A stretch of DNA of 64,000 nt from Opitutaceae bacterium (GCA_014879845.1 JACSRI010000122.1:1-64000), one strand, 5' to 3'. Positions 20,550 through 61,765 are shown, counted from the first letter of the stretch. Notes: generated from the sequence alone by a model not told the origin. Translations and numbers: made by a program.

Positions 20550-20589
20550 CGGGAGTCGACTCCTGGATGGAGGGATGGGGGGAAGTGGT

Positions 20590-21498: not shown

Positions 21499-21511
21499 GG
21501 TGAGAGTCGCC

Positions 21512-22405: not shown

Positions 22406-22418
22406 GAAAAGGAAGGAG

Positions 22419-23210: not shown

Positions 23211-23247
23211 GGATCTTCGGTGACAAGGGCGTGGGCGCTTCCGCAGA

Positions 23248-24264: not shown

Positions 24265-24270
24265 GGGAAT

Positions 24271-25089
24271 TCAAAGATGGATGCCGTAGGCGTAGGTCGC
24301 CCGGTAGTGGATGATGAAGGACTTTAGGACTTGGAGGACCGCTTCACTGTAGAGCTGGTCGTTCCACACATCAGGGACCTCCACTCTCAACTCGAAAGGA
24401 GCGAGGGGGAGGTCGTCAGCGAGAGTGAGCGGACCGCTGCTCGCGTGATCGCCGCCCTTCTCAACGAACCAACGCACCCGGAATCCGGCAGCATCGCCGG
24501 GTCCGGCCAACACCGAGTCGTTGCCCGAGCCGGCACGGCTGCCGTTTCGAATCGTTGCGACGATCTCGGTCACTGCGGCCGACTCGACGCGCACAAAACC
24601 ATGATAAGCGCGCAGGCGCGCATCCTGGGAGAGTAGCGCGATCTCCGGCGAGTCGCTTAGATTCCAGTGGGCACGGGTCAGGTCCTGACCGCCAGCGGCC
24701 TCGAGAGTCGATCGCGCCAAGCCCGACGGGTTGACCAACGGAAAGAACGTGAGATTCAACCCCTGGCCCAAGTCCGGCTTGAGTGCCAGCCGCTCCACAA
24801 GGTGCAGAAGCGCTCGCGAGGGCCGTGCATCGCGCCCGTCAAACCCGGCGTGGAAGACCAGGCGCACGGACTCGTCCGAAAACTGCGGACCGAAATAGAC
24901 AAATCGCGGCACGGTATGGCTCTCGCCCCCGACGCTCAACGGACCGAGCGGCGATCCGAAGATGTGCGTGCTGTGCTGCGCGATCTGATACAGGTCGGAG
25001 AACGCACGATCGAGGTCCCCGGCGGGACCCGATACCGCGCCGGACGGGCGTGGCTGGACATGGCGGACCGTGGCAAGACTTCGTGGCAT
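24271..25089 (-). CDS. M14 carboxypeptidase-like protein lacking zinc motif (pseudoenzyme candidate)
   Basis: VRLVFHAGFDGRDARPS replaces SLVHGDEPAG; FFPLVNPSGLARSTL. Confidence 0.65.
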   Translation of the reverse strand: MPRSLATVRHVQPRPSGAVSGPAGDLDRAFSDLYQIAQHSTHIFGSPLGPLSVGGESHTVPRFVYFGPQFSDESVRLVFHAGFDGRDARPSRALLHLVERLALKPDLGQGLNLTFFPLVNPSGLARSTLEAAGGQDLTRAHWNLSDSPEIALLSQDARLRAYHGFVRVESAAVTEIVATIRNGSRAGSGNDSVLAGPGDAAGFRVRWFVEKGGDHASSGPLTLADDLPLAPFELRVEVPDVWNDQLYSEAVLQVLKSFIIHYRATYAYGIHL

Positions 25090-25166
25090 GGCGGCGATTT
25101 GCTCGTAGGGGCTTCGGACGGAGTGTGCCGGCGTCGATTGACGTCGGCACACACGACTCGTGTCGG

Positions 25167-26168
25167 CTATTTCACGTAAATCTGATCGAACAGGGCACCA
25201 TCGGCGAAGTGCTCCTTCGTGGCCTTCGTCCAGCCGCCGAAGACATCATCGATGGTGAACAAGTTGATGTCCGGGTACTGGTGCTTGTACTTCTCCTTCA
25301 CCTCGGGCAGAAACGCCCGGTAGTAGTGCTTGGCAAAGATGGCCTGGCCCTCCGGTGAGTAGAGATACTCCAGATAAGCCTTCGCCACGTCCTGCGTGCC
25401 CTTCTTTTTGACGACCTTGTCTACCCACGCGACGGTCGGCTCAGCCAGGATGCTGATCGAAGGCACGATGATTTCGAAGTCGTCGGGGCGAAGCTTCTTG
25501 GTGAGGAGCAACTCGTTTTCCCAGTTGATCAACACGTCGCCGATGCCGCGCTCGACGAACGTGGTCGAGGCACCGCGGGCGCCGGAGTCGAGCACGGGCA
25601 CGTTCTTATAGATCGCCGCGACAAACTCCTGCGCCTTCTTCTGGTCGCCATTGTTCGCCTTGAGCGCAAAACCCCAGGCCGCGAGGTAGTTCCAGCGCGC
25701 CACACCCGAGGTCTTCGGGTTTGGCGTGATCACAGATATGCCGGAGCGGATCAGATCGGGCCAGTCCTTGATACCCTTCGGGTTGCCCTTGCGCACAAGA
25801 AACGCGAGCGTCGAGGTGTAAGGCGCGGAGTTACGCTCGAGGCGTTTTTGCCAATCGGCAGGAAGCAGATTTCCATTCTGGTGCAGCGCGTCGACGTCGG
25901 CGGCCAGCGCGAGCGTGACGACATCGGCCTGCAGGCCATCGATCACCGCACGCGCCTGGCGGGAGGAGCCGCCGTGCGACTGCTTGACGGTGACATTGTC
26001 GCCGGTCTTGCCTTTCCAATACGCGGCGAACGCGGCGTTGAACTCGACGTAGACCTCCCGAGTCGGGTCGTAGGAGACGTTGAGAAGTTCGATATCCTTG
26101 GCTGAAGCGGATGCGCTGCCCAGAACGGCAGTCGCGAGAAGGGCGCGGAGGAGATTTGGGATTTTCAT
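25167..26168 (-). CDS. sbp: sulfate ABC transporter substrate-binding protein (second copy)
   Basis: [61 protein letters not shown]. Confidence 0.93.
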
Positions 26169-42022: not shown

Positions 42023-42844
42023 TCAGTGCGTGGTGATGAATCCGAGTTTGCCGAGCGCCTCGAGGATCGGCGTGCGGCCGTTCGACGCCTCGGTCACCTT
42101 CACGCGACCGACCGCCTGCTTCTTCCACTCCTGGATCGGGAGCTTCTGCGAGGCCTGGAACTCCTGGATGATCTTCTCGTATTCAGCCAGGGCCTCCGTC
42201 TCGGCAGCGGCCGAGTACTGCTCCTGATGCAGCACAACCTTCTGCGGGAGACGCGGCTTGACCGAGGCTGGACGCGCGGGGTCCGGCTTGCCGACGACGA
42301 GTCCATAGAGAGGAAAGGCTCCCGGCGGCAGATTGAGCTCAGCCGCGACCTTGTCGGGATGCGAGCGCAGCGCACCGATGTAAACCACGCCGTAACCCAG
42401 CGACTCGGCGGCGGCCACTGCGGACTGGGCGGCGATAGTCGTGTCCGTCACTCCCACGAGAAACGAGTCGAGGCGCTCGAGACCCTCGGCCGGATCGCCG
42501 ATCTGGTTGGCAATGCGCCGCAGGCGGGACAGGTCGGCGACCCAGACAAGGAAGAGCGGGGCTTCGAGGATCTGCTTCTGATTCGCAGCGAGCGCAGCCA
42601 GGCGCGCCTTGCGCTCGGGATCCCGGACGGCGACCACACTCCAGGCCTGGATATTCGACGAGGTTGAGGCCGACTGGGCCGCCGCAATGATCAGGCCGAG
42701 CGTCTCGTCGTCGATCGGATCGGGAAGGTAGGCGCGCACAGAGCGGTGCTGGAGCAGCGTCGTGATGGCCTGATTGGCGCCGTTCTTGAATTTCGGGGCG
42801 GCCGCACCATAGCGGGCGTGGAGGAGTTCTGTGAGTTGTGACAT
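42023..42844 (-). CDS. nitroreductase / NADPH-flavin oxidoreductase family protein
   Basis: LLQHRSVRAYLPDPIDDETLGLIIAAAQSASTSSNIQAWSVVAVRD. Confidence 0.88.
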   Translation of the reverse strand: MSQLTELLHARYGAAAPKFKNGANQAITTLLQHRSVRAYLPDPIDDETLGLIIAAAQSASTSSNIQAWSVVAVRDPERKARLAALAANQKQILEAPLFLVWVADLSRLRRIANQIGDPAEGLERLDSFLVGVTDTTIAAQSAVAAAESLGYGVVYIGALRSHPDKVAAELNLPPGAFPLYGLVVGKPDPARPASVKPRLPQKVVLHQEQYSAAAETEALAEYEKIIQEFQASQKLPIQEWKKQAVGRVKVTEASNGRTPILEALGKLGFITTH

Positions 42845-42873
42845 GGAGGAATGCTGCGTGTTGGAAGGGTGTT

Positions 42874-43842
42874 TCAGTTCAGTTTCTGGAGCTGCTCGAG
42901 GAACTCGGCCGGCGTCCATTTCTCGGTGTCGTTTCGGTAGACGAGCTTTCCGTCGGGCCCGATGACGATGGTGTTGAGCGAGTGCTTGATGACACCCTCC
43001 TCGAAGAAGCTGGTGATGCTGAGCTGGCGCAGGAGATTCTGCACCGCCGCCTCGGGACCGGTGAGGAAGGAAAAGTTCGACGTATCGATCCCGCGGGCAT
43101 TGGCATACTCGCGCAGCACGCCCGGGGTGTCGTAGTTGGGATCGAGGGAGATCGAGATGAGTTCGACATCGCTCAGGCCCTTCTCGCGCGCAGCCTGCTG
43201 GAGTTGGGTCATCTTCAGCGTCGCCGCCGGGCACATCGTCGCTACCGGGCAGCGCGTGTAGATGAAGTTGAGCACGATCTTCTTTCCCCGAAAGCGATTC
43301 ATATCCACGACGCGGGCATCCTGGTCGTAGAGGGTGAAGGTCGGCGCCTGCTCACCGAGGTCGCGAAAGGTGTAGATCCGCTTGTTCAGGGCGGCTGTTT
43401 CCTTGGCGAGCGCCTCGGCGCCTGCGGCGATCGCGGCTGCCGTGGCTGCGTCGTCGGGCCAGATCTGTTCGAGAAAGTACTCATCACCCCGCTGCACGAG
43501 CCGGGCACGGATGCGCTGGCCCTCCTTCGCGATGGCGAGGTCGCCGTCGCTGACGACAAACTCCATCGTCATCGGCGGCATGAAGTCCTTGATCTCGTCG
43601 TGCGTGACCAGGAGCGAGCGTCGCTCGAGGTTGATCCCGATGATTTCACCGGTCAGCGGCCAGGATGGTTCGCCTTCCACCGCAGGAGCCTCGGTCGCGA
43701 CGTTCGTGGCGTTCACTGCCTGAGCTTCGCCTGAACGGCCGCAGCCCGCGCAGAAGGCGATCGCCGCCAGCCCGGCAAGCGCCGCCGCACTTCTCAGTGC
43801 GGCGGCTACCCACCGGCATGACTGATAACCCCGAACAGTCAT
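42874..43842 (-). CDS. SCO1/SenC-family protein with N-terminal CusF-like domain
   Basis: PLTGEIIGINLERRSLLVTHDEIKDFMPPMTMEFVV; KKIVLNFIYTRCPVATMCPAAT. Confidence 0.85.
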   Translation of the reverse strand: MTVRGYQSCRWVAAALRSAAALAGLAAIAFCAGCGRSGEAQAVNATNVATEAPAVEGEPSWPLTGEIIGINLERRSLLVTHDEIKDFMPPMTMEFVVSDGDLAIAKEGQRIRARLVQRGDEYFLEQIWPDDAATAAAIAAGAEALAKETAALNKRIYTFRDLGEQAPTFTLYDQDARVVDMNRFRGKKIVLNFIYTRCPVATMCPAATLKMTQLQQAAREKGLSDVELISISLDPNYDTPGVLREYANARGIDTSNFSFLTGPEAAVQNLLRQLSITSFFEEGVIKHSLNTIVIGPDGKLVYRNDTEKWTPAEFLEQLQKLN

Positions 43843-43844
43843 GG

Positions 43845-44714
43845 TCAGATATTGCGGGCGAGCGACGGGTCGGCTGGCGCCCCCGGGTTCGCGATGGCGA
43901 GCTCCTCGATCAGCTCGCGCTTGATGTCGGCGAACGCATGGCTCACGCGATCCCGCGGACGCGAAAGATTGACCTTGAGGATCTTCTTGATGCGGCCCGG
44001 TCGGCGATCGAGGATGACGATGCGGTCGGAGAGATAGATCGCCTCCTCGACGTCGTGCGTGACGAGGATGTTCGAGATGCCTTCGGTCTTCCAGATGCGC
44101 AGGATCTCCTCCTGGAGATTGATGCGCGTGATGGCATCGAGCGCACCCAGCGGCTCGTCGAGCAGCAGGATCTCCGGACGGTTGACCAGCCCGCGGGCGA
44201 TCGCCACGCGCTGGGCCATGCCTCCAGAGAGCTGATACGGGTAGACCTTTTCGAACCCGTTCAAGCCGACGAGATCGAGATGCTCCTGCACGACCCGCTT
44301 CCGGTCCACCTTGCTCAACGGCGAATTCTGCAGGCCGAGGCCCACGTTGTCCTCCACCGTCAACCAGGGCAGAAGACGATGATCCTGGAAGACCACGCCC
44401 CGATCGAGACTCGTCCCGCGAACCGGCTCGTCGCCGAGCAAGATCTCGCCCCGATAGTCGTCGTCCAGCCCGACGATTAACCGCAACAGCGTGGATTTTC
44501 CGCAACCGCTGGCGCCCAGGATGCTGACGAATTCGCCCGGGTGGACGGTGAACGAGACGTCGTCGAGAACGTGCAGCGGCTCCTCGTCGACCTCGAAATA
44601 CTTCGTCACATTGCGGATGTGGAGCGCACGGCGACGCTTCACAAGGGGCGCTGCGCCGCTGTCGTGAATTGAGGCTCCGGCTGGCGCTTGTGGAGAGTCT
44701 GCAAGTACGCTCAT
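43845..44714 (-). CDS. ssuB: nitrate/sulfonate/taurine-type ABC transporter ATPase
   Basis: GASGCGKSTLLRLIVGLDDDYRG, LSGGMAQRVAIARGLVNRPEILLLDEPLGALDA. Confidence 0.88.
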   Translation of the reverse strand: MSVLADSPQAPAGASIHDSGAAPLVKRRRALHIRNVTKYFEVDEEPLHVLDDVSFTVHPGEFVSILGASGCGKSTLLRLIVGLDDDYRGEILLGDEPVRGTSLDRGVVFQDHRLLPWLTVEDNVGLGLQNSPLSKVDRKRVVQEHLDLVGLNGFEKVYPYQLSGGMAQRVAIARGLVNRPEILLLDEPLGALDAITRINLQEEILRIWKTEGISNILVTHDVEEAIYLSDRIVILDRRPGRIKKILKVNLSRPRDRVSHAFADIKRELIEELAIANPGAPADPSLARNI

Positions 44715-44718
44715 CAGC

Positions 44719-45792
44719 TCAAAGTCCCTTGAGAGCTTCCGCGAGGAAGCTGTGATCCGCCCACTGGTTCACATCGAAGTCGTTCTTGATGTAGCCGTGG
44801 GAGAGGAGGAAGTTCTTCTCGATCGTCAGGCCGGCGAGATTCTGGGCCGAGAGATTCGGGACGAGATCGTAGTTGGGCAACGCGGCCCGGATTTGGCACG
44901 TCGCCGGATAGACGGTCACGCGACGGAAGATGTCGGCCGCGGCGGCGGGATGCGCATTGATCCACCGGCCGGCACGGATGGCAGCGCGCAAGAAGGCGAC
45001 CACGATCTCAGGATGCTCATCGGCCAGCTCGGCGCTCACGGATATCGTGCGCGGCGAGTTGGCGATCTTGAGCGTCCAGTCGGGATGACGGTCGAGATCC
45101 TCGATGACCTTGAACTCGCCCGTCTTCTCCAGCCGGTGCGCGACGCCGACCGAATAGTCGAAGATCGCATCCACCTTCCCATCACGAAGAGCCTGCGCCT
45201 CGAGGGACCAGCCGTCGACCGGACGCTGCGCCCACAGCTCGGCGGGCTTTTGCGCGGGGTTGCCGGTGTGGTCGTCGTCGTCGTCGATGTCGACGATCTG
45301 CACGTCCTTGCGGCTCAGGCCGTGGACGGCTAGCGTCTTCTCGATGCCATGCTCGGTCGTCGCGCGGCGATGGTCGATCTTGTCGGTGTTCAGACTGTGG
45401 TAGAGGGCGAAGCGCCGGCCCACCAGGTCTTCCACGCGATAGATTCCCGAGTCGACGCGCACGATGATCTTGCCCGCGGGCTGAGCCTGCGTGAGACCGA
45501 CCAGGCGTGTCTTGCGGATGTCAGCCTGCGCCCAGACGGCCGGGCTGTTGCCGCCATCGCGGATCAGGTTGTCCGAGCGATGGTCGAAGTGCCACTGCCA
45601 CGTGCCGCTGCTGAGGAGCGAGCGCAGGTAGGTGGCTTTGGCGCCGACGCGGCGGTACTCTTCGTCGAGCCAGCCGAGCTCGACCGCGACGTTGGAGGCG
45701 ACGAGCACTGGGCAGATCGTGTAGAGGGATTCGGTCACGCCGGAGGCGCCAGCGGCGGTGGCGGAGGAGGATTTCTGAAGGGTGGAACTCAT
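44719..45792 (-). CDS. DszB-like sulfinate desulfinase family protein, paralog 1
   Basis: YTICPVLVASNVAVELGWL, HFDHRSDNLIRDGGN; no signal peptide. Confidence 0.7.
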   Translation of the reverse strand: MSSTLQKSSSATAAGASGVTESLYTICPVLVASNVAVELGWLDEEYRRVGAKATYLRSLLSSGTWQWHFDHRSDNLIRDGGNSPAVWAQADIRKTRLVGLTQAQPAGKIIVRVDSGIYRVEDLVGRRFALYHSLNTDKIDHRRATTEHGIEKTLAVHGLSRKDVQIVDIDDDDDHTGNPAQKPAELWAQRPVDGWSLEAQALRDGKVDAIFDYSVGVAHRLEKTGEFKVIEDLDRHPDWTLKIANSPRTISVSAELADEHPEIVVAFLRAAIRAGRWINAHPAAAADIFRRVTVYPATCQIRAALPNYDLVPNLSAQNLAGLTIEKNFLLSHGYIKNDFDVNQWADHSFLAEALKGL

Positions 45793-45829
45793 GGTGATGT
45801 GGTTCTCCAGGGTTGCGGTCTTGATACGC

Positions 45830-46927
45830 TCAGAGCGTGCCGAGCGAACGGTGAGCCTCCTCGAGGAACTGCGGCGCGGCCCACTGGTTCACGTCAAAGT
45901 CTCGCTTCACGTAACCATGTGACCGCAGGAAGTCCTTCTCGATGGCGGTGGCCGCGAGGTTCTTGGCCGAAAGATTCGGGACAAAGTCCGCGTCTGCGAT
46001 GGCGCGAGCGATCACGGCGGGTTGGTCGTAGAACGTCACGCGACGGAAGATGTCGACGGCAGCGGCGCGATTGGCGTTGATCCATCGGCCGGCGCGGATC
46101 GAGGCGCGGAGGAACGCGATCACAACCTCGGGATTCTGTTTGGCGAGCTGCGTGCTCACGGCGTTGGTGTAGGGCCCGTTGGCCACCTGAAGCGTCCAGT
46201 CCGGATGCAGACCGAGATCTTCGATGACCGTGAATTCGCCGGACTGCACCAGAGTCTCGGAGCGGCCGTGATTGGAGTAGAACGCATCGATGCGACCCTC
46301 GCGCACGGCGAGAACATCCTTGCCCGCGCCGTTGAAGCCGCGGCGCTCGTCGCGCAGCTGCGACCAGATCTCGGCGGGCTTCGAGGCCTGCTTGAGGATC
46401 GCTGGCGAGTCGGCGTCCTCAAGGTCGACAATCTGCACGTCGCCGCGCTTGAGGCCGTTGATTTGAAGGGCGAGTTCGATACCGCGCTCGGCCGTGGCGC
46501 GATGGAAGTCGATCTTGCCCTTGTTGAGACTCTTGAAAAGGCCGATACGGCGGCCCTTCAGGTCGGCCACGCGGCGAATGCCGGAGTCGGCGCGCACGAG
46601 GATCTGCCCGCCGGACTGCGCCCAAGTGAGACCGATGAGCGTGGTGTCCTCGAGATCCGCCTTCACCTGGATGGTCGGTATCGAGCCGCCGTCACGGAAG
46701 AGTGGATGCAGCGCGTGCGTGTAGTGCGGGAGCCAGCCGGCGTTTTCCGGGAGCGAGCGCAGGTAAGTAGCCTTGGCGCCGACGCGTCTGAACTCCTCGT
46801 CGAGCCAGCCGAGCTCCACCGCGACATTGGACGCGGAGAGAACCGGGCAGATCGTGTAGAAGGCCTCGGTGAGGCTGCGGGGCGCGGCGGTGGCGGATTG
46901 CGGTTTGCTTTCGAGAATGGCGCTCAT
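45830..46927 (-). CDS. DszB-like sulfinate desulfinase family protein, paralog 2
   Basis: YTICPVLSASNVAVELGWL, HYTHALHPLFRDGGS; no signal peptide. Confidence 0.7.
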   Translation of the reverse strand: MSAILESKPQSATAAPRSLTEAFYTICPVLSASNVAVELGWLDEEFRRVGAKATYLRSLPENAGWLPHYTHALHPLFRDGGSIPTIQVKADLEDTTLIGLTWAQSGGQILVRADSGIRRVADLKGRRIGLFKSLNKGKIDFHRATAERGIELALQINGLKRGDVQIVDLEDADSPAILKQASKPAEIWSQLRDERRGFNGAGKDVLAVREGRIDAFYSNHGRSETLVQSGEFTVIEDLGLHPDWTLQVANGPYTNAVSTQLAKQNPEVVIAFLRASIRAGRWINANRAAAVDIFRRVTFYDQPAVIARAIADADFVPNLSAKNLAATAIEKDFLRSHGYVKRDFDVNQWAAPQFLEEAHRSLGTL

Positions 46928-46971
46928 GGGCGTAGGAATGTGTTGTTTGTCTGTATGGTGCGGCGGCCGGC

Positions 46972-48045
46972 TCAGAGAGAGCGGATGGCCTCGTCGAGGA
47001 AGCGCGGGGCGGCCCAGGCCTTCACATCGAAGTCATTCTTGATATAGCCGTGCTTGAGGAGGAACTGCTTGGTGATCTCGATGCCGGCGAGGTTGCGCGG
47101 AGCGAGGTCGGGCAGGAAGTCGGTGTGCGCGATCGCCTTCGCCGTCTCCTCGACCGACGGATAGAAGGTCGTGCGGTGCAGGATCGTGGCGGCGGCCTCG
47201 CGGTTGGCGTTGATCCAGCGCGCGGCGCGCACGGCGGCGCGAGCGTAGGCGATGACGATCTCCGGCTGCTTCTGTGCGAGCTCGGTGTTGACCGTCAGCG
47301 CATACGGGCTGTTGTTGACCTGAAGCGTCCAGTCCGGATGGCGACCGAGGTCCTCGATGATCTTGTATTGACCGGTCTGCACAAGGGAGAGCGCGCGACC
47401 ATGGCTGGTGTAGAGCGCGTCGACCGTACCAGCGCGCACGGCGACGGCCTCGGGTCCAAGACGGCGGTCTTCGCTGCGGCTCGCCCAGACATCGGCCGGA
47501 CGGGCTCCCCCACCCCAGGCTGTATCCGCCGCGTCAGACACATCGACGAGTTGGACGTCACTGTCCTTCAGGCCAGCGATATCGAGCGCGAGCAGGATGC
47601 CGCGGTGCGCGGTGGCGCGCCACCAGTCGACCTTGTTCGCGTTATTGCTCTTGTAGATGCCGAAGCGGCGGCCCTTGAGGTCGGCCACACGGTGGATGTT
47701 CGAGTCCGAACGCACGACGACATGCCCGCCCTGGCGCGACCAGGTCAACCCGACGAGCGTGGTGTCCGCGCGATCGGCCTTGGCCCAGATCGAGGGAATG
47801 TTACCGCCGTCGCGGAAGAGATTGGGATGCTCGTGGCTGAAATGCGGCAGGAAGTGCGCCTCGTCGCTCACGCTGAACAGGTAGTTGAGGCTGGCGCCGA
47901 CCTTCTTCAGCTCCTCCTCGATCCACCCGAGTTCGAGCGCGACGTTCGACGCAGCGAAGACCGGGCAGATGGTGTAGTGGACCGCGGTGAGCGCGGGCTG
48001 GGCGGACTTGGAGGAGGCAGGCTTGGCTTCGAGTGTGGTGGACAT
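46972..48045 (-). CDS. DszB-like sulfinate desulfinase family protein, paralog 3
   Basis: YTICPVFAASNVALELGWI, HFSHEHPNLFRDGGN; no signal peptide. Confidence 0.7.
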   Translation of the reverse strand: MSTTLEAKPASSKSAQPALTAVHYTICPVFAASNVALELGWIEEELKKVGASLNYLFSVSDEAHFLPHFSHEHPNLFRDGGNIPSIWAKADRADTTLVGLTWSRQGGHVVVRSDSNIHRVADLKGRRFGIYKSNNANKVDWWRATAHRGILLALDIAGLKDSDVQLVDVSDAADTAWGGGARPADVWASRSEDRRLGPEAVAVRAGTVDALYTSHGRALSLVQTGQYKIIEDLGRHPDWTLQVNNSPYALTVNTELAQKQPEIVIAYARAAVRAARWINANREAAATILHRTTFYPSVEETAKAIAHTDFLPDLAPRNLAGIEITKQFLLKHGYIKNDFDVKAWAAPRFLDEAIRSL

Positions 48046-48080
48046 GGTGGTATGAGTATCTGCGGGTGGTTGACGGATGT

Positions 48081-49163
48081 TCAGAGCGACCGGAGGGCCT
48101 CGTCGAGGAAGCGGGGCGCGGCCCACTGCCCGATGTCGAAGTCGCGATCGATGTAGCCGTGCTCGAGAAGGAATCGTTTCTGGATCCCGAGACCGGCGAT
48201 GTTTTGTATCGAGAGATTAGGCACAACATCGCCGAGCCTCGTGATGGCGGCGGCGATGGAGGGGGCATCCGGGTAGATGAACGCCACGCGGCTGAGGATC
48301 TCGGCCGCGGCGTCCGGGTGGGCATTGGCCCAGCGACCGGCGCGGATCGCCGCGCGGAGGTAGGCGACAACCACCTCCGGATGTTCGTTGGCGAACTGCG
48401 TGTTGACCGTCAGCGTCAACGGGCTGTTGGCCACGCGCACGGTCCAATCCGGATGAAGATCGAGATCTTCGATCACCGTATAGTCTCCGGTCGCCTCGAG
48501 CAGCCGCGAGCGGGAAGGATAGGTGAAGATGGCATCGACGCGGCGCTCGGCCAGCGCCTGGACATCCGTCGCGGCGAAACGATCCACGCCCGACTTGAAC
48601 GTCTCTGCCGGGTTGCTCCCCTTCGGAAAACGGGTCGATGCATCCTCGGTATCATCGAGGTCGACGAACTCGACGTCGTGGCGCGAGAGACCGTGCAACG
48701 CCAGAGCCACGAGGTAGCCGCGCTCGGCAGTCGCGCGCCAGAAATCGACCTTGCCGCGATTGAGGCTTCGGTAGAGTCCAAGACGGCGTCCGCGCAGATC
48801 GGCCACGCGACGGATCTTGGAGTCCACGCGCACGACGATCTGGCCGGCCGGATTGGCCGCGGTCAGTCCGAGCAGCGTTGTATCCGTGATTCCGGACTTC
48901 GCCCAGATGGCGGGTATGTTGCCGCCGTCGCGGAAGAAGTTGTCCAGCTTGTGGCTAAAGTGCGGCAGCCAGCCGACACTGTCACCGAGCGCGCGCAGGT
49001 AGGTGAGGCTCGCGCCGGACTTCTTGATCTCCTCCTCGAGCCAGCCGAGCTCCACGGCGAGGTTGGAGGCGACGAGCACCGGGCAGATCGTGTAGCGCGC
49101 CTCGGTCACAGCATGGATGCGGATCGGCGCGGAGGCGAGTGGGCTTGCAGCGGATGAACTCAT
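48081..49163 (-). CDS. DszB-like sulfinate desulfinase family protein, paralog 4
   Basis: YTICPVLVASNLAVELGWL, HFSHKLDNFFRDGGN; no signal peptide. Confidence 0.7.
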   Translation of the reverse strand: MSSSAASPLASAPIRIHAVTEARYTICPVLVASNLAVELGWLEEEIKKSGASLTYLRALGDSVGWLPHFSHKLDNFFRDGGNIPAIWAKSGITDTTLLGLTAANPAGQIVVRVDSKIRRVADLRGRRLGLYRSLNRGKVDFWRATAERGYLVALALHGLSRHDVEFVDLDDTEDASTRFPKGSNPAETFKSGVDRFAATDVQALAERRVDAIFTYPSRSRLLEATGDYTVIEDLDLHPDWTVRVANSPLTLTVNTQFANEHPEVVVAYLRAAIRAGRWANAHPDAAAEILSRVAFIYPDAPSIAAAITRLGDVVPNLSIQNIAGLGIQKRFLLEHGYIDRDFDIGQWAAPRFLDEALRSL

Positions 49164-49181
49164 GGTGATGGCCTCAGGGAA

Positions 49182-50261
49182 TCAGAGCGTACGAACCGCC
49201 TCCTCGAGGAAGCGGCGGTCGATCCACTGGTTCAGGTCGAAGTCGTTCTTGATGTAGCCGTGCGAGAGGAGGAACTGCTTCTCCAGCTCGATGGCGGCGA
49301 GATTCCGCGGCTCGAAGTTGTGCAGGAAATCGACCTCGGCGATGGCCCGGGCTGTATCCGCCGTGCTGGGAAGGTAGGTTGTGCGGTGGAACAACTCCGC
49401 CGCCGCCTCGCGGTTCTTGTTGATCCAGCGCGCGGCGCGCACCGCTGCTCGCAGGTAGGCCACGACGATCTCCGGATGCTCGTCGGCCAGAGTCTCGCTG
49501 ACGGTGAGCACATACGGGCTGTTGGCGCTTTGCAGCGTCCAGTCGGGCAGGCGGGAGAAATCCGTGATGACGGTGTAGCGCCCCGTGCGCTCCAAACCCG
49601 TCGCGAGCCCGAAGTTGGAGAAGATCGCATCGGCCAGGCCGGCCTCGAGGAACGGAATCTCCGGCGCCCAGGACGGCGCGTTCTGAACGCGATGTTGGCG
49701 CAAGCTCTCACCGGGATTGGCGGCCGTGCCGAAACGCCGCGGATCGTCCTCGGCCACGGCGTCGACGATCTCAACATCGGCGCGAGTCAGGCCACCGAGT
49801 GAAAGCACCGCCTCGAGGGCGCGCTCGGAGTTCGCGCGCCACCAGTCCACCTTGCCCTCGATGCGACTGGCGGGCAGCGCGAAACGCCGGCCCTTGAGTT
49901 GCGCGAGGGTATGAATTCCGGAATCGGCGCGGACGACGATCTGCCCACCAGAGTGAAACGACGTGGTGCCGATCAGTCGCGTCTTCGCCACATCGGCGCG
50001 CGCCCAGATCGGCGGTACGAGGCCGCCGTCGCGCACGAGATTGTCGAGCCGATGGCTGAAATGTGCGAGGTGGACCTGGGGATCCTCGATCGAGCGCAGG
50101 TAGCGCAGGCTCGCACCGACCTTGCGCAGCTCCTCCTCGATCCAGCCGAGCTGCAGGGCGACGTGCGAGGACACGTAGACCGAACAGATCGTGTAGGCGA
50201 CCTCGGTCAAGCGTGCCGGCTTGCCCTCAACAAGCTGCGGGGACGTGGCGATCGAACTCAC
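49182..50261 (-). CDS. DszB-like sulfinate desulfinase family protein, paralog 5 (most divergent)
   Basis: YTICSVYVSSHVALQLGWI, HFSHRLDNLVRDGGL; no signal peptide. Confidence 0.68.
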   Translation of the reverse strand: MSSIATSPQLVEGKPARLTEVAYTICSVYVSSHVALQLGWIEEELRKVGASLRYLRSIEDPQVHLAHFSHRLDNLVRDGGLVPPIWARADVAKTRLIGTTSFHSGGQIVVRADSGIHTLAQLKGRRFALPASRIEGKVDWWRANSERALEAVLSLGGLTRADVEIVDAVAEDDPRRFGTAANPGESLRQHRVQNAPSWAPEIPFLEAGLADAIFSNFGLATGLERTGRYTVITDFSRLPDWTLQSANSPYVLTVSETLADEHPEIVVAYLRAAVRAARWINKNREAAAELFHRTTYLPSTADTARAIAEVDFLHNFEPRNLAAIELEKQFLLSHGYIKNDFDLNQWIDRRFLEEAVRTL

Positions 50262-50337
50262 GCTGGATGTGCGTTTGTGGTGTCGTGAGGGCCGGGCGGC
50301 GACATGAGCCGCGCCCGGCCGTAGCGGTGCCTTGAAT

Positions 50338-51414
50338 TCAGCTCAGCGAACGTGCCGCTTGCTCAAGGAGCTCGGGGGCGGCCCACGCCTTCACATCGAA
50401 GTCGCGCTTGATGTAGCCGTGCGAGAGGAGGAACTGCTTCTCCACCTCGATCCCGGCGAGATTGCGCGGCGAGAGATTGTGAATGAAGTCGATCTTCTCG
50501 ATCGCGCGGGCCACGTCGGCCACTGTCGGGTAGTAGGTCACCCGGTGGAGGATCTCGGCGGCGGCGGCGCGGTTGGCATTGACCCACTTGCCCGCACGCA
50601 GCGAGGCGCGGAGGAAAGCGACGACGAGCTCGGGATGCTGGTCGGCGAAGTCCGAGTTCACCGTCAGCGCCCAGGGACTGTTGGCGACCTGAAGCGTCCA
50701 GTCAGGATGGCGCTCGAGATCCTCGATCGACTTGAAGAGTCCCGTCCGTTCGAGCGCGATGGCGCGACCGAAGCTGCTGTAGACTGCATCGACCTTACCA
50801 TCCTTGAGTGCCTGGACCTCGGGCGTGAAGGAGAGATCCTCACGCCGGCGCGTCGTCCAGAGGTCGGCGGGCTTGGTGGCGTTGCCAAGACCGACATTGT
50901 CAGGATGGGCGACATCCTGGATCTGGACATCGGCGCGCGAGAGACCGGAGAGGCCGAGGGCGACCTCGATTGAGCGCTCGCTCGTGCCGCGCCACCAGTC
51001 GACCTTCTCCGCGTTCTGACTCTTCGAGAGACCGATCTTGCGGCCCTTGAGGTCGGCCACGCGGTGCAGACCGGAGTCGGCGCGCACAAGGATGCGGCCG
51101 CCTGCCGGCGACCAGGTGAGCCCGATCAGGCGGGTATCCGCTTGATCAGCCTTCGCCCAGATCGACGGGATGTTGCCGCCATCACGGAAGAGATTGTCGA
51201 GCTTGTGACTGAAGTGCGGCAACCAGCCGATCTCGGGTGAGAGCGAGCGCAGGTATTTGAGGCTGCCGCCGGACTTCTTCAGTTCCTCGTCGAGCCAACC
51301 GAGTTCGACGGCGACATGGGAGGCGACGAAGACCGGGCAGATGGTGTAGACGACTTCAGTGAGTGCCTTGGCGGAAGATTGTTGGGAAACGGGATTTTCG
51401 AGTGTGGTGCTCAT
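50338..51414 (-). CDS. DszB-like sulfinate desulfinase family protein, paralog 6
   Basis: YTICPVFVASHVAVELGWL, HFSHKLDNLFRDGGN, terminal KQFLLSHGYIKRDFDVKAWAAPELLEQA; no signal peptide. Confidence 0.72.
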   Translation of the reverse strand: MSTTLENPVSQQSSAKALTEVVYTICPVFVASHVAVELGWLDEELKKSGGSLKYLRSLSPEIGWLPHFSHKLDNLFRDGGNIPSIWAKADQADTRLIGLTWSPAGGRILVRADSGLHRVADLKGRKIGLSKSQNAEKVDWWRGTSERSIEVALGLSGLSRADVQIQDVAHPDNVGLGNATKPADLWTTRRREDLSFTPEVQALKDGKVDAVYSSFGRAIALERTGLFKSIEDLERHPDWTLQVANSPWALTVNSDFADQHPELVVAFLRASLRAGKWVNANRAAAAEILHRVTYYPTVADVARAIEKIDFIHNLSPRNLAGIEVEKQFLLSHGYIKRDFDVKAWAAPELLEQAARSLS

Positions 51415-52385: not shown

Positions 52386-53450
52386 TCAGTTATAGCTGGA
52401 GAACTCGCCGCCCCTGAAAAAGCGGCGGTCAATGAACTGCTCGATCTGGGCGTCGGACAGCGACTGCCTGGCGAGAATGTCGTCGTCGTTTTCCTTATAC
52501 CAGGACTGGAACAACTTCAGGTTCGCGACCGCCGTCTCGTAACTGGGCTCACCGCCCATGAAGTCGAAGGTCGACGCGTCCGTGATCTGGAACTTCGCGA
52601 CATACTTCGGCACGCGGTTCTCGCGACTGATGATCGAGGCGGCCTCGTCGGGGTTGGCCTTGATCCACTCCGACGTCTTGATTTTGACGTCGAGGAACGA
52701 CTTCACCAATTCGGGATAGTCGTTGACGAACGAGGTGAGCGCGAAGATCGCCGGCCGACCCGCGGCGTTGACATAGACGCCGTCGTCGACGCTGCGGCCG
52801 ATGACCTTGACCACACCCTGCGTAACGAGGTTGGCCCAGCCATTCAGCGCAATGTGCGTGGCGGTGAAGTCAATCTGGCCGCCGAGCAGGGCCGAGGTGG
52901 TGGCCGTGCTGCTGCCTTGGTTGAGGAAACGGACCTCACCCTTCTTCGTGGCTGTGTCGAGCGGGAGGCCCGCCTTCTTCAGCGCTTCGTAGGGGGAACT
53001 CCACCCGCAACCGACGCGGCTGCCGCCGTAGGTCTTGCCCTTGAGGTCGGCGATGGACTGGATCGGCGACTCACGCAGCGTGATCAACGGCGTGCGATAG
53101 ATATCCGACGCCTCCGATTGCCAGATGATCGAGGCCTGCAGGCCGTTGGTCTTGTGGATCAGGGCCGGGTAGGACATGCGGAACGCGAAATGCACCTCGC
53201 CGCGCGTGAGCAGCGCAGCCTCCTGGCCGGCCACCGCCGTGGTGCCCTGGTCGAGGATCTGCACCTTCACGCCGTATTGCTCATATTCCTGCTGCAGCCA
53301 CCCTTTGCTCGCGGCGATGACCGTCCACGAGTTCAGCGGGATGTTGATCGTCTTGAGCTTCTTGGGTGCGGCCGAGGCCGTCGTGGCCAGAACTGTGGCC
53401 GCGAGGATGGCGGCGACGCCGAGGATCTTGCCGTGCTTCAGTGTATTCAT
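52386..53450 (-). CDS. ssuA: sulfonate-type ABC transporter substrate-binding protein with signal peptide
   Basis: MNTLKHGKILGVAAILAATVLATTASAAPKKLKTINIPLNSWTVIAASKGWLQQEYEQYGVKVQIL. Confidence 0.85.
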   Translation of the reverse strand: MNTLKHGKILGVAAILAATVLATTASAAPKKLKTINIPLNSWTVIAASKGWLQQEYEQYGVKVQILDQGTTAVAGQEAALLTRGEVHFAFRMSYPALIHKTNGLQASIIWQSEASDIYRTPLITLRESPIQSIADLKGKTYGGSRVGCGWSSPYEALKKAGLPLDTATKKGEVRFLNQGSSTATTSALLGGQIDFTATHIALNGWANLVTQGVVKVIGRSVDDGVYVNAAGRPAIFALTSFVNDYPELVKSFLDVKIKTSEWIKANPDEAASIISRENRVPKYVAKFQITDASTFDFMGGEPSYETAVANLKLFQSWYKENDDDILARQSLSDAQIEQFIDRRFFRGGEFSSYN

Positions 53451-53499
53451 AGTCTGGTTTCTTCGATGGATTGCTGACATGTTTTCCCTGGGGGATTCT

Positions 53500-54909
53500 T
53501 CAGAAGGCGAGGACCACCTGGGTCACAAGTTGGTTGGGATTGGGCGCCGTGGCGGCCAGGGTCTCATCCTCGATAAACCGATAGTTCGCCTGGACCTTGA
53601 TCACGCGCTCGGTCTTCACCGTGTCATAGGTGCGGCGGACGATCGGATCCTTCTGCCAGAAGTAGTAGTTGAACCCGACCGTCGTGATGTCCCGTCTGCC
53701 GTTTTCGGCCAGGTTCTTGTTGGTGTTGAACCGCTCGAATCGGACCAGCGGCTCGAAGTCCGGCAGCTTGCCCGGGCGCCAGAAGACGGTGGCGAGGAAC
53801 TCGTCCTTGTCGACGGTCGCTCCGGTGCCGACCGGGTCGTCCTTGCCCCACACATACTCGGCGGTGATCAGCAGCGGCAGCTTGAGCCACTCAAACTGGA
53901 CCCCGTTGAGCTCACGGTCGATCGCCGCGGCTCCCGTGCCGCTTGTCCACTGCAGGCGCGAGGCCCCGACCTTCAGGCCCTGGAAGAACGAGTTGTACTT
54001 ATTGAACGGTGTATAGACCAGCTTGCCGAGGTAGGCCTTGCCGTCGTTGTCATCCTGCACGTTGGTCGCGCCGACGCCGTTGCCATTGAAGGCAGCAAAG
54101 GTGTAGGCAATCGTCGGGACGAACGACTGGTCGCTGGTTGCCGCTGAGTCATACTTCCAGTTGATACCCCCCGAAGCCACCAATCCGATGTCGCGGGTGT
54201 TGAATGCCGAGAGGTAGGCCGCTCCCGTGATCGTCGGCCGTAGTTCCTCGCCACCGACATTGTCGTTGCCGAAGAAGACAGCCTGCTGGCCGAGTTGGAA
54301 CCCGAGCGTGTAGGCCGGCTCCAGTTCCTTCTTCTGAAGACTCTTGACGCCCACGTTAACGAAGGCGTCCTGCAATCGCGTGGTGTTCGTCGCGCCGGCG
54401 TAGTTCAGCGAAAGCCCGTAGCGAACGTCACCTTCCTCAGCCGGATCTGAACGGAGCGCGCCCGTGAAACCGAATGTCGCCGACGGGATCGTGAATCCGC
54501 GCGAGCCGGTGGCGCTGTCGGTGTAGCGCACGATCGAGCTGCCCGTGAGGACGACGCCGACGCCGTTGCGAACCCGCAGGCGCCGATCGAGTTGATCGTT
54601 CTGCTGTTCGCGCACCGACTCGAGGTCGGAAGCAGTGACGGGCTCGTTTCCGGCCGTCTTGAACGTGTCGCGAACCTGGATCGCCTGCTGAGCTTGGGTT
54701 TCGGCAAGTTTCGTCTCCTGCTCGACGATCTTCGAGCCCTGGATCGCGGAGAGGTTGCTGACGGCCCGGAGCTCCTGCTTGAGTTCGGCGACGACCTTTT
54801 TGAGTTCGTCGACCTCACTCTGCAGCGAGGCTTCATCAGCCGGCAAAGGAGTGGTTCCTAAGAACGCCGCGATCGAAGCGACCACGGCGAAAGTGCGTTT
54901 GGATGGCAT
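53500..54909 (-). CDS. porin (OprO/P-like)
   Basis: Signal peptide, coiled-coil region, RNGVGVVLTGSSIVRYTDSATGSRGFTIPSATFGFTGAL..., terminal Phe. Confidence 0.78.
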   Translation of the reverse strand: MPSKRTFAVVASIAAFLGTTPLPADEASLQSEVDELKKVVAELKQELRAVSNLSAIQGSKIVEQETKLAETQAQQAIQVRDTFKTAGNEPVTASDLESVREQQNDQLDRRLRVRNGVGVVLTGSSIVRYTDSATGSRGFTIPSATFGFTGALRSDPAEEGDVRYGLSLNYAGATNTTRLQDAFVNVGVKSLQKKELEPAYTLGFQLGQQAVFFGNDNVGGEELRPTITGAAYLSAFNTRDIGLVASGGINWKYDSAATSDQSFVPTIAYTFAAFNGNGVGATNVQDDNDGKAYLGKLVYTPFNKYNSFFQGLKVGASRLQWTSGTGAAAIDRELNGVQFEWLKLPLLITAEYVWGKDDPVGTGATVDKDEFLATVFWRPGKLPDFEPLVRFERFNTNKNLAENGRRDITTVGFNYYFWQKDPIVRRTYDTVKTERVIKVQANYRFIEDETLAATAPNPNQLVTQVVLAF

Positions 54910-57159: not shown

Positions 57160-58563
57160 ATGAACTCCATCCCACCTCCCATGAGCTCGCACAAGCGCCA
57201 GATCAAACTCGGCCTGTTCATCTACCCCAATGGCCACCACGTCGCCTCGTGGCGCCATCCCGACGCCACCCACGACGGTCATCTCAACTTCGCGCACTAT
57301 CAGCGCATTGCGCGCCTCGGCGAAGAGGCCCGCTTTGACGCGCTCTTTCTCGCCGACAGCGCCGCGGTGCAGGCGCGCGAGATCGACATCCTCAGCCAGA
57401 CCGCACACGGCTTCGCGCAATACGAACCCCTGACGATACTCTCGGCGCTCGCCACCGTGACGTCCCGTATCGGACTCGTGGCGACGGCGTCGACCAGCTT
57501 CACCGAGCCCTACACGATCGCGCGCGCCTTCGCCTCGCTCGACCACATCAGCGGCGGCCGCGCCGGCTGGAATGTCGTCACGTCCTCCAACCTCATCGAG
57601 GCCCTGAACTTCAACCGAGACGAACACGCGCCGCACGCAGACCGCTACGACCGCGCCGAGGAGTTTGTCGACGTCGTCACAGGCCTGTGGGACAGCTGGG
57701 AGGACGACGCGTTCATCCGCGACAAGGCTTCTGGCAGGTTCTTCGACCCGGCCAAGCTCCACGTCCTGAACCACCGCGGAAAACACTTCTCCGTGCGCGG
57801 TCCGCTCAACGTCGCCCGCCCGCCCCAAGGACATCCGGTCATCGTGCAGGCCGGCTCGTCCGAGCCCGGCCAGGAACTCGCCGCGCGCACCGCAGAACTG
57901 GTCTTCACCGCGCACACGAGCCTCGCCAACGCCCGCGCCTTCTACGCCAGCCTCAAGGGCCGTCTCGCCAAGTACGGGCGCACCGCCGACGACCTGAAGA
58001 TCATGCCCGGCGTGCAGGCCTACGTCGGCCGAACCGAACAGGAGGCGCGCGATCGCTACGCCGAAATCACCGCGCTCATTCCACCTGCAGTCGGACTGTC
58101 GCTACTCTCCTCGCTGCTTGGCGGATTCGACCTCTCCCGCTACCCGGTGGATGGGCCGCTGCCGTTTGCCGACATCCCCGCAACCAACGGCAGCCCCAGT
58201 CGCCAGCAGGTGATGATCGACCTTGCCCGCCGCGAGAATCTCTCGATCCGCCAGCTCTATGAGTCGATCGCCGGCGCGCGGGGCCATTGGACGATCGTCG
58301 GCACGGCCGCGCAGATCGCAGACCAACTCGAAGAGTGGTTCGTGAAGCAAGGGGCCGACGGATTCAATGTCATGGCACCCTATCTGCCCGGCGCGCTCGA
58401 GGACTTCGCACGTCTCGTCATCCCGGAGCTGCAGCGGCGCGGGTTGTTCCGGACTGAATACGAGGGCCGCACGCTGCGGGAAAACCTCGGTTTGCGCCGG
58501 CCGGCTAACCGCCACGCGCCCACCGCATCGTCACCCACGGCGGGAGCCACGATCCTGTCATGA
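57160..58563 (+). CDS. NtaA/SnaA/DszA-family FMN-dependent monooxygenase
   Basis: GGRAGWNVVTSSNLIEALNF, PPQGHPVIVQAGSSEPGQELAARTAELVFTA, RRGLFRTEYEGRTLRENLGLRRP (DszA-like C-terminus). Confidence 0.88.
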   Translation: MNSIPPPMSSHKRQIKLGLFIYPNGHHVASWRHPDATHDGHLNFAHYQRIARLGEEARFDALFLADSAAVQAREIDILSQTAHGFAQYEPLTILSALATVTSRIGLVATASTSFTEPYTIARAFASLDHISGGRAGWNVVTSSNLIEALNFNRDEHAPHADRYDRAEEFVDVVTGLWDSWEDDAFIRDKASGRFFDPAKLHVLNHRGKHFSVRGPLNVARPPQGHPVIVQAGSSEPGQELAARTAELVFTAHTSLANARAFYASLKGRLAKYGRTADDLKIMPGVQAYVGRTEQEARDRYAEITALIPPAVGLSLLSSLLGGFDLSRYPVDGPLPFADIPATNGSPSRQQVMIDLARRENLSIRQLYESIAGARGHWTIVGTAAQIADQLEEWFVKQGADGFNVMAPYLPGALEDFARLVIPELQRRGLFRTEYEGRTLRENLGLRRPANRHAPTASSPTAGATILS

Positions 58564-59402
58564 GCCAGGACGCCACCGCCCGCATCCTACGCGCCCTGGA
58601 TCGCCGTTTCGGCGTGTCCGGGAAGGAACTGCCACCCCTGCCTGACGCGGCGGCCCTCGCCCGCCTGCTGGAGCACAACACCCACCGACGCTATACAGCG
58701 ACTCCGGTCCGCGATGATCTGCTCGACCTTCTCTACGCCGCGGCGCTGTCTGCGCCGTCGAAGAGTGATCTGCAGCAGGCGGACATCATTCGCGTGCGCT
58801 CAGTCAGCAAACGCCAGGCGATAGGCCGCCTGCTCCCGGACATGCCGTGGGTCGTCGAGGCACCGGTGTTTCTGGTCTTCTGCGGCAACAGTCGCCGTAT
58901 CCGCCGCGTCGCTTCAATGCGTGGCAAGCAGTTCGCCAACGACCACCTCGACGCCTTCTTCAATGCCACCGTCGATGCCGGGATTGTCCTGGCAACGTTC
59001 ATCCACGCCGCCGCGGCAGCCGGGCTGGGCGCCTGCGCGATCAGCGCGATCCGCAACCACGCCCACGACATCAGCGACCTTCTCGAGCTGCCCCCGTGGG
59101 TTTTCCCCGTGGCGGGGCTCTGCGTGGGCTATCCGGATCTGAAGGGTCGCATCGTCCCACGCCTGCCGCTCAGCCTTACCACGCACACCGACAGGTATGA
59201 CGAGGGCGATTTTGCCGCCCAGATCGAAGCCTACGATCGCCGTCGCGACACCGCCCTGCCCTACGCCAACCAGCAGCTGGTCGAGCTCTATGGTCGGGCT
59301 GGATTCTACGGCTGGTCCGAGGACAAGGCCCGCCAGTACTCGGAACCGATGCGCGCCGACTTCGGCGCATACGTCCGCAACCAAGGTTTCGATCTCACCT
59401 GA
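58560..59402 (+). CDS. nitroreductase family protein
   Basis: LLEHNTHRRYTATPVRDDLLDLLYAAALSAPSKSDLQQADIIRV; overlaps DszA-like gene stop. Confidence 0.87.
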   Translation: MSQDATARILRALDRRFGVSGKELPPLPDAAALARLLEHNTHRRYTATPVRDDLLDLLYAAALSAPSKSDLQQADIIRVRSVSKRQAIGRLLPDMPWVVEAPVFLVFCGNSRRIRRVASMRGKQFANDHLDAFFNATVDAGIVLATFIHAAAAAGLGACAISAIRNHAHDISDLLELPPWVFPVAGLCVGYPDLKGRIVPRLPLSLTTHTDRYDEGDFAAQIEAYDRRRDTALPYANQQLVELYGRAGFYGWSEDKARQYSEPMRADFGAYVRNQGFDLT

Positions 59403-59492: not shown

Positions 59493-60143
59493 ATGTCTGA
59501 GTTTCCCCAACTTCCCGCGTGCATGCCCCCACGGCTCACCGTCGGAGCGGTGCTCTTTGACGGATTCGAACTGCTCGATGCATTCGGACCCCTCGGGATC
59601 CTTGGCATCCTGCGCGACCGCCTCCGAATCCTGACGCTCGCCGAACACGTGAGTCCGGTCGCCTCGTCCGCCGGTCCGAGGATCGCCATAGACCGCGCCT
59701 TCGAAACATCCGGGCCTATCGACATTCTCCTCGTGCCTGGAGGTCCCGGAACACGCCGCGAAATCCACAACACTCTCCTGATCGCCTGGCTCCAGCGCGC
59801 CGCCGCCTTCACGCCGCACGTAGCAACCGTCTGCACCGGCAGCGCATTGCTTGCCCGAACTGGCCTGCTCGACGGCCGGCGCGCGACGACAAACAAACGC
59901 GCCTTCCATTGGGTTGCCTCACAAGGCCCGCACGTGGTCTGGCAGCCAGAAGCTCGCTGGGTCGAGGACGGCAAGTTTTTCACCGCATCCGGCGTCGCCG
60001 CCGGCATCGACATGTCCCTCGGCCTGGTTGCGACGCTTTTTGGTCGGGAGACGGCCATCTCGGTCGCAACGCGCGCCGAGCATGACTGGCACGAGGACAA
60101 ATCCTGGGATCCATTCGCCCGCATCAACGGGCTCGTCGCTTGA
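59493..60143 (+). CDS. DJ-1/PfpI (ThiJ/isonitrile hydratase-like) family protein
   Basis: VGAVLFDGFELLDAFGPLGILG, VATVCTGSALLARTGLLDGRRATTNKRAFHWV. Confidence 0.87.
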   Translation: MSEFPQLPACMPPRLTVGAVLFDGFELLDAFGPLGILGILRDRLRILTLAEHVSPVASSAGPRIAIDRAFETSGPIDILLVPGGPGTRREIHNTLLIAWLQRAAAFTPHVATVCTGSALLARTGLLDGRRATTNKRAFHWVASQGPHVVWQPEARWVEDGKFFTASGVAAGIDMSLGLVATLFGRETAISVATRAEHDWHEDKSWDPFARINGLVA

Positions 60144-61765
60144 ATTCCGCCTCGACCGACGCGTCCGCCCCCATGCAACCGCTTCACTCCATCGAACCCG
60201 CCGCCGTACGCGCACGCATTCGCGACGGTCGCGAGGTGGCCTTCCTAGACCTGCGCGAGGCCGGCCCGCACGGCCGCGCCAAACCGCTCTTCGCAGTCAA
60301 CATTCCCCTCGGACACCTGGAGGAGCGTATCCACGCCTTGGTTCCACGGCAATCGACGCCGATCATCCTCTTCGACGCCGAGACGGGCCTGTCCCAACGC
60401 GGCGCCGAGGTCCTTGCGGCGCTGGGATACACCGAGGTCGTGCGCGTACGCGGCACGCTGGCCGACTGGCGGCGGGCCGGCGCCGAGCTCTTTCGCGACA
60501 CAAACGTGCCGAGCAAAGCCTTCGGCGAGTGGGTCGAGCAGGAGGCGCACACCCCGGAGATCTCCGCGGAGGAGCTGAAGGCGCTGCGGGACCGCGGCGA
60601 GGACGTGGTAGTGATCGACGATCGTCCCTTCACCGAGTACCGGGTCGCCACGGTCCCCGGCTCGATCAACGTGCCCGGGGCCGAATTGATCCTGCGGGCC
60701 CAGGAACTGCAGCGCTCCCCGGACACGCTGGTCGTCGTCCACTGCGCGGGCCGCACGCGCAGTCTCATCGGCACGCAAACCCTCGTGAATTCGGGCCTGT
60801 TTCGCCGTGTCGTCGGTCTGCGAGACGGAAACATCGGCTGGCATCTCGCGGGCTTTTCGCTCGAACACGGCGCGGACCGCCGCGCGCCCGTGCATCTGGC
60901 TCCTGCCAACCATGCGCGTGCTCGTGCAGCCGCCACCCACCTGGCCGAACGAACCGGCGTGCGCTTTCTCACCGCGGCGGAACTCGCTAGGTGGGAACGC
61001 GAGGCTGACAGGCACTCACTGTTCAAGTTCGACGTGCGCAGCCCTGAGGAGTTCGCGGCACGGCGCGCCCCAGGCTTCGCCAGCGCGCCCGGCGGACAGT
61101 TGATTCAGGCCACCGATGAATACATCGGTGTGCTCAACGCCCGCGTGGTGCTGGGTGACGACGACGGCGTGCGCGCCGCCACCACAGCCTCATGGCTACG
61201 CCAACTCGGTTTCGAGCAGGTTGCCGTGCTGCGCGACGGCCTGCGCGATCAACTTGCGAGCCTGCCGACGCCCGAGCGTGCCTGGGTCCGCCCACCCGAT
61301 GTTCCTCAGATTGAACCCAACTCGCTCCAGTCGCTGATCGGCACCCCGGGTGTGGTGGTCGTGGACTTGCGCTTAAGTTCCGAATACGCGGCCGGGCACA
61401 TCCCCGGCTCGTGGTACGCGCCGCGCGCCCGACTGGCCGAGGCGCTGCCCGCGTTTCCTCGTGCGGAACGCATCATCCTCGTTTCCTCCGACGGCTACCG
61501 TGCAGCCTTCGCCCAGCCGGAGCTGCAGGCGTTGACGACCGCCGCAGTGACCATCCTTGCCGGTGGATTCTCCGCCTGGCCTCTGCGCGGTCGCCCGGTG
61601 CAGACCGGCCTGATCCGCGCCGCCGTCCCGCCCGACGACATCTATCGCCGCCCACTCGAGAACGATCCCGATGCGATGAAACGACACTACATCGCCTGGG
61701 AACTCGGACTGCCTGCGCAAGTCCGCAACGACGGCACGGCGCGCTTCGTCGTTCACACGCCATGA
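60140..61765 (+). CDS. four-domain rhodanese homology protein
   Basis: Repeated rhodanese folds; VVVHCAGRTRSLIGTQTLVNSG active-site loop in domain 2; TTG start overlapping previous stop or ATG at 60173. Confidence 0.85.
   Translation: MNSASTDASAPMQPLHSIEPAAVRARIRDGREVAFLDLREAGPHGRAKPLFAVNIPLGHLEERIHALVPRQSTPIILFDAETGLSQRGAEVLAALGYTEVVRVRGTLADWRRAGAELFRDTNVPSKAFGEWVEQEAHTPEISAEELKALRDRGEDVVVIDDRPFTEYRVATVPGSINVPGAELILRAQELQRSPDTLVVVHCAGRTRSLIGTQTLVNSGLFRRVVGLRDGNIGWHLAGFSLEHGADRRAPVHLAPANHARARAAATHLAERTGVRFLTAAELARWEREADRHSLFKFDVRSPEEFAARRAPGFASAPGGQLIQATDEYIGVLNARVVLGDDDGVRAATTASWLRQLGFEQVAVLRDGLRDQLASLPTPERAWVRPPDVPQIEPNSLQSLIGTPGVVVVDLRLSSEYAAGHIPGSWYAPRARLAEALPAFPRAERIILVSSDGYRAAFAQPELQALTTAAVTILAGGFSAWPLRGRPVQTGLIRAAVPPDDIYRRPLENDPDAMKRHYIAWELGLPAQVRNDGTARFVVHTP

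Follow-up and report, generated by a model that had tools for sequence, protein, structure and literature searches.

Six tandem genes in a transporter operon of an Opitutaceae bacterium (GCA_014879845.1) encode full-length homologues of DszB, the 2'-hydroxybiphenyl-2-sulfinate desulfinase of Rhodococcus IGTS8 (PDB 2DE2/2DE3). The six proteins, D1 to D6, are old, distinct and maintained paralogues, and they probably serve as cytosolic organosulfinate desulfinases of the DszB superfamily in sulfur scavenging. DszB clips sulfur off oil compounds; it catalyses a slow step in fuel biodesulfurization, and few of its relatives have been studied. The proposed function rests on homology, conserved active-site residues, fold, the lack of a leader, the operon and the maintained orthologues, from which we infer the reaction, the substrates and the division of labour among the copies.

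Organization of the array

The window, i.e., the whole stretch of 64,000 nucleotides that was analysed (JACSRI010000122.1:1-64000), carries six complete minus-strand open reading frames at 44719-51414. As the sequence-only reading had described, they lie in tandem between SsuC-like and SsuB-like genes. The genes of the operon are listed below, with orthologues in a second genome of the same family (G005) where these exist.

43845-44714, minus strand: SsuB/TauB-type ATPase (Pfam and NCBIfam searches)
44719-45792, minus strand: D1, DszB-like protein, 357 aa; complete open reading frame; orthologue E2, 71% identity
45830-46927, minus strand: D2, DszB-like protein, 365 aa; complete open reading frame; orthologue E7, 72% identity
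46972-48045, minus strand: D3, DszB-like protein, 357 aa; ATG within a longer open reading frame; orthologue E6, 70% identity
48081-49163, minus strand: D4, DszB-like protein, 360 aa; complete open reading frame; orthologue E5, 66% identity
49182-50261, minus strand: D5, DszB-like protein, 359 aa; GTG start; CSV replaces CPV; the most divergent of the six
50338-51414, minus strand: D6, DszB-like protein, 358 aa; Cys26/His67/Arg77-x-Gly-Gly; transcribed first in the array; orthologue E3, 81% identity
51510-52355, minus strand: SsuC/TauC-type permease (Pfam and NCBIfam searches)
52386-53480, minus strand: SsuA-like periplasmic binding protein; leader present, Cys/His/Arg set absent
53500-54909, minus strand: outer-membrane porin-like protein (Porin_O_P match), also present in the second genome

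Intergenic gaps along the chain porin-SsuA-SsuC-D6-D5-D4-D3-D2-D1-SsuB are 4-95 bases, so a single operon is likely, and the porin-like gene is probably its first. The locus had been called an ssu operon. It does contain an SsuABC-type transporter, but the transporter genes score under the NCBIfam SsuB and SsuC cut-offs and ssuD is absent; the term is therefore to be read as an operon of an SsuABC-type transporter. Searches of the window found no Rfam elements and no promoter match, and terminator matches appeared only at chance level. The six proteins (357-365 aa) are 49-62% identical in pairs. Their N-termini are short, hydrophilic and rich in Ser, Thr and Ala, whereas SsuA begins with a typical leader. 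Judged by simple hydropathy and reading of the N-termini, D1-D6 lack a signal peptide, as had been claimed, and are predicted to be cytosolic.

Homology to DszB

In single-sequence searches of the PDB, DszB was the top match of D6 (E 2.9e-15) and also came first for D5 and D1. A 65-row family profile matched DszB over its full length with E 5.8e-44 and binding proteins only locally, at 1e-8 or weaker. The control, the neighbouring SsuA-like protein, gave no DszB match at E 1. Fold comparison was carried out for D6. Its AlphaFold model (pLDDT 94.9, pTM 0.91) returned DszB in places 1-3 of a Foldseek search of the PDB (E 1.2e-19 to 4.5e-18, TM 0.73-0.77), followed by SsuA (E 1.5e-14, TM 0.65); Thi5 and the CmpC regulatory domain ranked below these. 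Although the identity to DszB is about 25%, sequence search, phylogeny, predicted fold and conserved active-site residues all agree on the DszB-like homology proposed in the sequence-only reading.

Pfam places D1-D6 mainly in NMT1, above the cut-off, and NCBIfam SsuA_fam scores them at 67-75 bits, less than half of its 163.5-bit cut-off; these matches name only the fold. Mislabelling by standard pipelines had been foreseen, and annotated plasmid relatives are indeed called "ABC transporter substrate-binding protein". It is very improbable that the six are ordinary sulfonate-binding proteins of the SsuA family, as such annotation has it. With the SsuA/TauA/NMT1-type periplasmic proteins they share the general fold, the Pfam family name and an operon with SsuBC, besides the SsuA_fam scores. 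Those proteins, however, possess a leader and fall into a separate clade (a 100/99 split from 16 binding proteins), a true SsuA is already encoded in the operon, and the NCBIfam scores of the six are far under the cut-off. The DszB active-site set is present in D1-D6 and absent from binding proteins. A plain SsuA-type identity was rejected on the missing leader, the separate clade and the DszB residues.

Active-site residues

The motifs TIC(P/S)V, H(F/Y)xxH and (F/I/V)RDGG noted in the sequence-only reading were all found in six of six copies, with His and Arg spaced by exactly 10 in each copy and in DszB. The motif Cys is present in all six proteins, five of which have no second Cys. Seven of about 356 columns are invariant across 65 diverse relatives, and the seven include the three catalytic residues of DszB. 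The random expectation of this is about 5e-6, so the motif match is not due to chance. Conservation of at least 97% among 64 rows including DszB was found for nine columns: C27, H60, R70, G72, G73, L117, G119, W282 and W351. In the alignment, the Cys/His/Arg-GG set is absent from the true binding proteins of the same operons.

In DszB, the C27S variant is inactive, and H60 and R70 hold the sulfinate (PMC6100217; see also PMC12168087). S25 forms a dyad with H60 and supports it, and RxGG is conserved among DszB homologues (PMC6100217). The array proteins keep C27/H60/R70-x-G72-G73 at the same spacing and resemble DszB also in having no leader. The position of S25 is occupied by Thr (YTIC) in all six, and by Ser or Thr in every relative printed in which the stretch is present, except L044, whose start is unclear. 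Unlike DszB, the array proteins have His at the position of Y63, and this His is invariant in all relatives examined other than DszB. By homology to DszB, Cys, His and Arg would be expected to meet in the cleft of the array proteins.

Thi5 (HMP-phosphate synthase) is also a cytosolic enzyme of this fold. Its Cys-rich motif (CCCFC, pattern CC.FC) is absent from the array proteins, most of which have a single Cys, and the fold match is weaker; on these grounds the Thi5 identity was rejected.

Phylogeny and the second array

The tree was built from 80 proteins. The 64 DszB-like proteins, DszB among them, split from the 16 binding proteins with 100/99 support, and there was no nesting inside the periplasmic binding proteins. 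DszB itself forms a long branch, the exact placement of which is unsure. Three groups were distinguished: A (the window and others, YTICPV), B (YTNCPL, IRFGG) and C (WYTRC/WFTRC), with group A paraphyletic relative to group B. D1-D6 are spread over different subclades common to Proteobacteria and Verrucomicrobiota, and the array therefore does not stem from recent duplication. The nearest relative of D5 is found in Aminobacter (L001 9297-10358). In a locus search with close-relative patterns, which was not exhaustive, copy number outside the two arrays was one or two in group A and reached a maximum of three tandem copies in group C. In the two-copy loci L001, L002, L003 and L006, the copies belong to different subtypes.

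Among 150 genomes sampled in the same family, relatives were found in one other, G005, which belongs to a different genus. It has seven copies (C1:6287431-6295476) in the order porin-SsuA-SsuC-E1...E7-SsuB-(SCO-like)-nitroreductase. One-to-one orthologues with 99-100 bootstrap are D1=E2, D2=E7, D3=E6, D4=E5 and D6=E3, with identities of 66-81%; D5 has no clear one-to-one orthologue among the G005 copies. The gene order D6, D4, D3, D2 is kept. The dN/dS of the five pairs is 0.17-0.29, next to 0.22 for SsuA. One-to-one orthology with these identities and dN/dS values indicates paralogues that are old and distinct and have been maintained. Sampling at order and phylum level added a single further genome with relatives, in one copy. 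An assembly artefact or very recent duplication was ruled out: the copies differ by the pairwise identities given above, belong to different subclades and recur in the other genus on a 7.3 Mb contig.

We infer that the array expanded for different substrates, as first suggested, and the old, maintained and orthologous paralogues support this. The cell would probably strip sulfur from several different organosulfur molecules. A wider proposal is held more tentatively, at slightly under even chances: the six-to-seven-copy array may be a set of non-redundant, substrate-specialised (or mixed-oligomer) desulfinases inserted between the permease gene and the ATPase gene of one importer, a panel removing sulfur from many organosulfur anions. 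It would then represent the greatest expansion seen in a large three-clade desulfinase superfamily spanning many bacterial phyla and methanogens and hidden by annotation as binding proteins.

Distribution of the family and relation to the transporter

The wider family is present in many phyla and is mostly annotated as substrate-binding proteins. Sulfur genes surround loci of all three clades. Group B (L018-L073, L080, L081; YTNCPL...IRFGG) is closely similar over a wide range of phyla, among them methanogens, Desulfobacterota, Chloroflexota and Bacteroidota. Its loci often lie close to a CoA-disulfide reductase-rhodanese fusion, rhodanese, and SulP and BASS transporters. In methanogens and other probable anaerobes, clade B occurs without NtaA/DszA-like monooxygenases. 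In Pseudomonas (L007-L015), a single group A copy lies away from SsuBC; in L007 it lies downstream of genes for a cystathionine beta-lyase and a further enzyme, close to TonB receptor and aldolase-like genes.

These loci bear on the possibility that D1-D6 are non-enzymatic, cytosolic substrate-binding regulators of the transporter, one per ligand, like the C-terminal domains of CmpC/NrtC. The D genes are indeed flanked by the permease gene and the ATPase gene, the Aminobacter locus L001 has the identical order SBP-permease-D-D-ATPase, and the CmpC regulatory domain is likewise a cytosolic binding-protein relative tied to an ABC importer, sharing the general fold (9uak, E 1.8e-9). That domain, however, is part of the ATPase chain, ranks much lower than DszB in the fold search and does not appear at E 1 in the profile search that finds DszB at 5.8e-44. 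Ligand sensing alone does not explain the invariant Cys, His and Arg, and relatives occur without adjoining SsuBC, by cystathionine beta-lyase in Pseudomonas and by CoA-disulfide-reductase/rhodanese in clade B. A regulatory role is thus quite improbable.

Proposed reaction and partner genes

The desulfinase reading involves the following genes near the array.

42023-42860, minus strand: NfsA-like nitroreductase (start approximate), a possible flavin reductase; also present in G005
57160-58563, plus strand: NtaA/DmoA-family FMN monooxygenase, a relative of YtnJ/CmoJ and DszA
58560-59402, plus strand: second NfsA-like nitroreductase, with a 4-base overlap with the monooxygenase gene

Organosulfur anions would pass the porin and then the SsuABC-type importer. 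The nearby NtaA/DszA-like FMN monooxygenase, using reduced flavin, may oxidise a sulfone or thioether to the sulfinate; alternatively, sulfinate may be imported as such. Each D protein has a binding-protein-like fold, in whose cleft Arg and His would bind the R-SO2- group. C-S cleavage would be driven by the invariant Cys, with the aid of His and of the Ser/Thr at the second position before Cys. The expected products are R-H and SO2/bisulfite, the latter passing through sulfite reductase to sulfide and through cysteine synthase to cysteine. The paralogues would most likely be tuned to different R groups. Calculations on DszB favour electrophilic aromatic substitution (PMC6100217). If this applies to D1-D6, aryl sulfinates are favoured, and alkyl substrates would need a nucleophilic route. 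No aromatic pathway was identified here, which counts against the desulfinase reading.

The monooxygenase is the sole luciferase-family gene found in the window genome; two of the three in G005 are at the same locus. Among solved structures, YtnJ/CmoJ (E 5.7e-115) come nearest to the window monooxygenase, and DszA follows at E 5.7e-104. The sole Acyl-CoA_dh_2 gene of G005 is also at this locus and matches MsuC (5e-96) and DszC (3e-85), whereas no DszC-like gene was found in the window genome. With respect to the dsz 4S set of DszA-like and DszC-like monooxygenases and a flavin reductase, the G005 locus holds two NtaA/DszA-like genes, one DszC/MsuC-like gene and nitroreductases, and the window locus one NtaA/DszA-like gene and nitroreductases. 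Nitroreductases flank both loci alike. Sulfite reductase-family genes are present in the genome. An SsuD or TauD route for sulfonates was rejected, since the single luciferase-family gene is of NtaA type and no TauD was found in the genome.

Several further observations count against the desulfinase reading: the low identity to DszB, the replacement of Y63 by His, the missing DszC-like gene, a monooxygenase that resembles YtnJ/CmoJ slightly more than DszA, and clade B in probable anaerobes, where monooxygenase-made sulfinates are unlikely. Apart from the missing DszC-like gene, the same points favour C-S or other lyases on a DszB scaffold with a non-sulfinate substrate, such as a sulfonate, thiosulfonate, S-conjugate or carboxylate, and this fold also carries a decarboxylase besides Thi5. 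Yet the conserved residues are those holding the sulfinate in DszB (H60, R70, G73, S/T25; PMC6100217), and all three clades lie among sulfur genes. Such lyases are therefore considered unlikely, and desulfination remains the preferred reading.

A desulfinase beside sulfonate-type ABC genes is already known. In Gordonia terrae C-6, the bdsA desulfinase gene adjoins genes of a sulfonate-type ABC transporter and of flavin monooxygenase and is upregulated on benzothiophene (PMC3868597). The window locus is similar in this arrangement; the Gordonia locus, compared here by its published description, is actinobacterial and has one desulfinase. The dszABC system also has one, in contrast to the six or seven tandem copies within a transporter operon. 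In the open-licence literature searched, neither a tandem array of desulfinases nor the wide family was found described. If the proteins are desulfinases, a deep pool of natural variants exists under the name of substrate-binding proteins, and each array offers a ready set for studying how one scaffold changes substrate. The proteins would then also reveal by what means bacteria other than actinobacteria recover sulfur from organic matter. Checking for the invariant Cys/His/Arg is a simple means of correcting the annotation.

Other genes at the loci

The window also contains a sulfur gene island, with a sulfate ABC transporter (19455-26168) including two sulfate-binding proteins (23248-24264, 25167-26168), an Rrf2 regulator at 27963 and a CysK-like gene starting at 17647. 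Gamma-glutamyltransferase genes of the window (12541-14436) and of L109 (2732-4336) are 80% identical and lie in both sulfur islands; in G005 this gene adjoins the DszC/MsuC-like gene. This hints that glutathione conjugates may serve as a source. A 541-aa protein with three rhodanese domains (60140-61765) is kept in G005 beside the monooxygenases. The product of 42874-43857 is SCO1/SenC-like by eye (CPVATMC motif), with no NCBIfam match at the threshold used, and is kept in G005 after SsuB.

Genes for 2-hydroxyacyl-CoA dehydratase/double-cubane-type reductases and BadF-type activases stand beside or near the DszB-like gene in L080 (6436-11864), L045 (4184-6627) and L006 (15212-17260). The dehydratase/double-cubane-type subunits are 78-86% identical between Rhizobium and a Desulfobacteraceae bin, which suggests a mobile cassette. 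In Omnitrophota (L017 11110-13053), a 647-aa protein adjoining the DszB-like gene combines a C-terminal SsuC/SaoP-type permease with an extra membrane-like N-terminal part.
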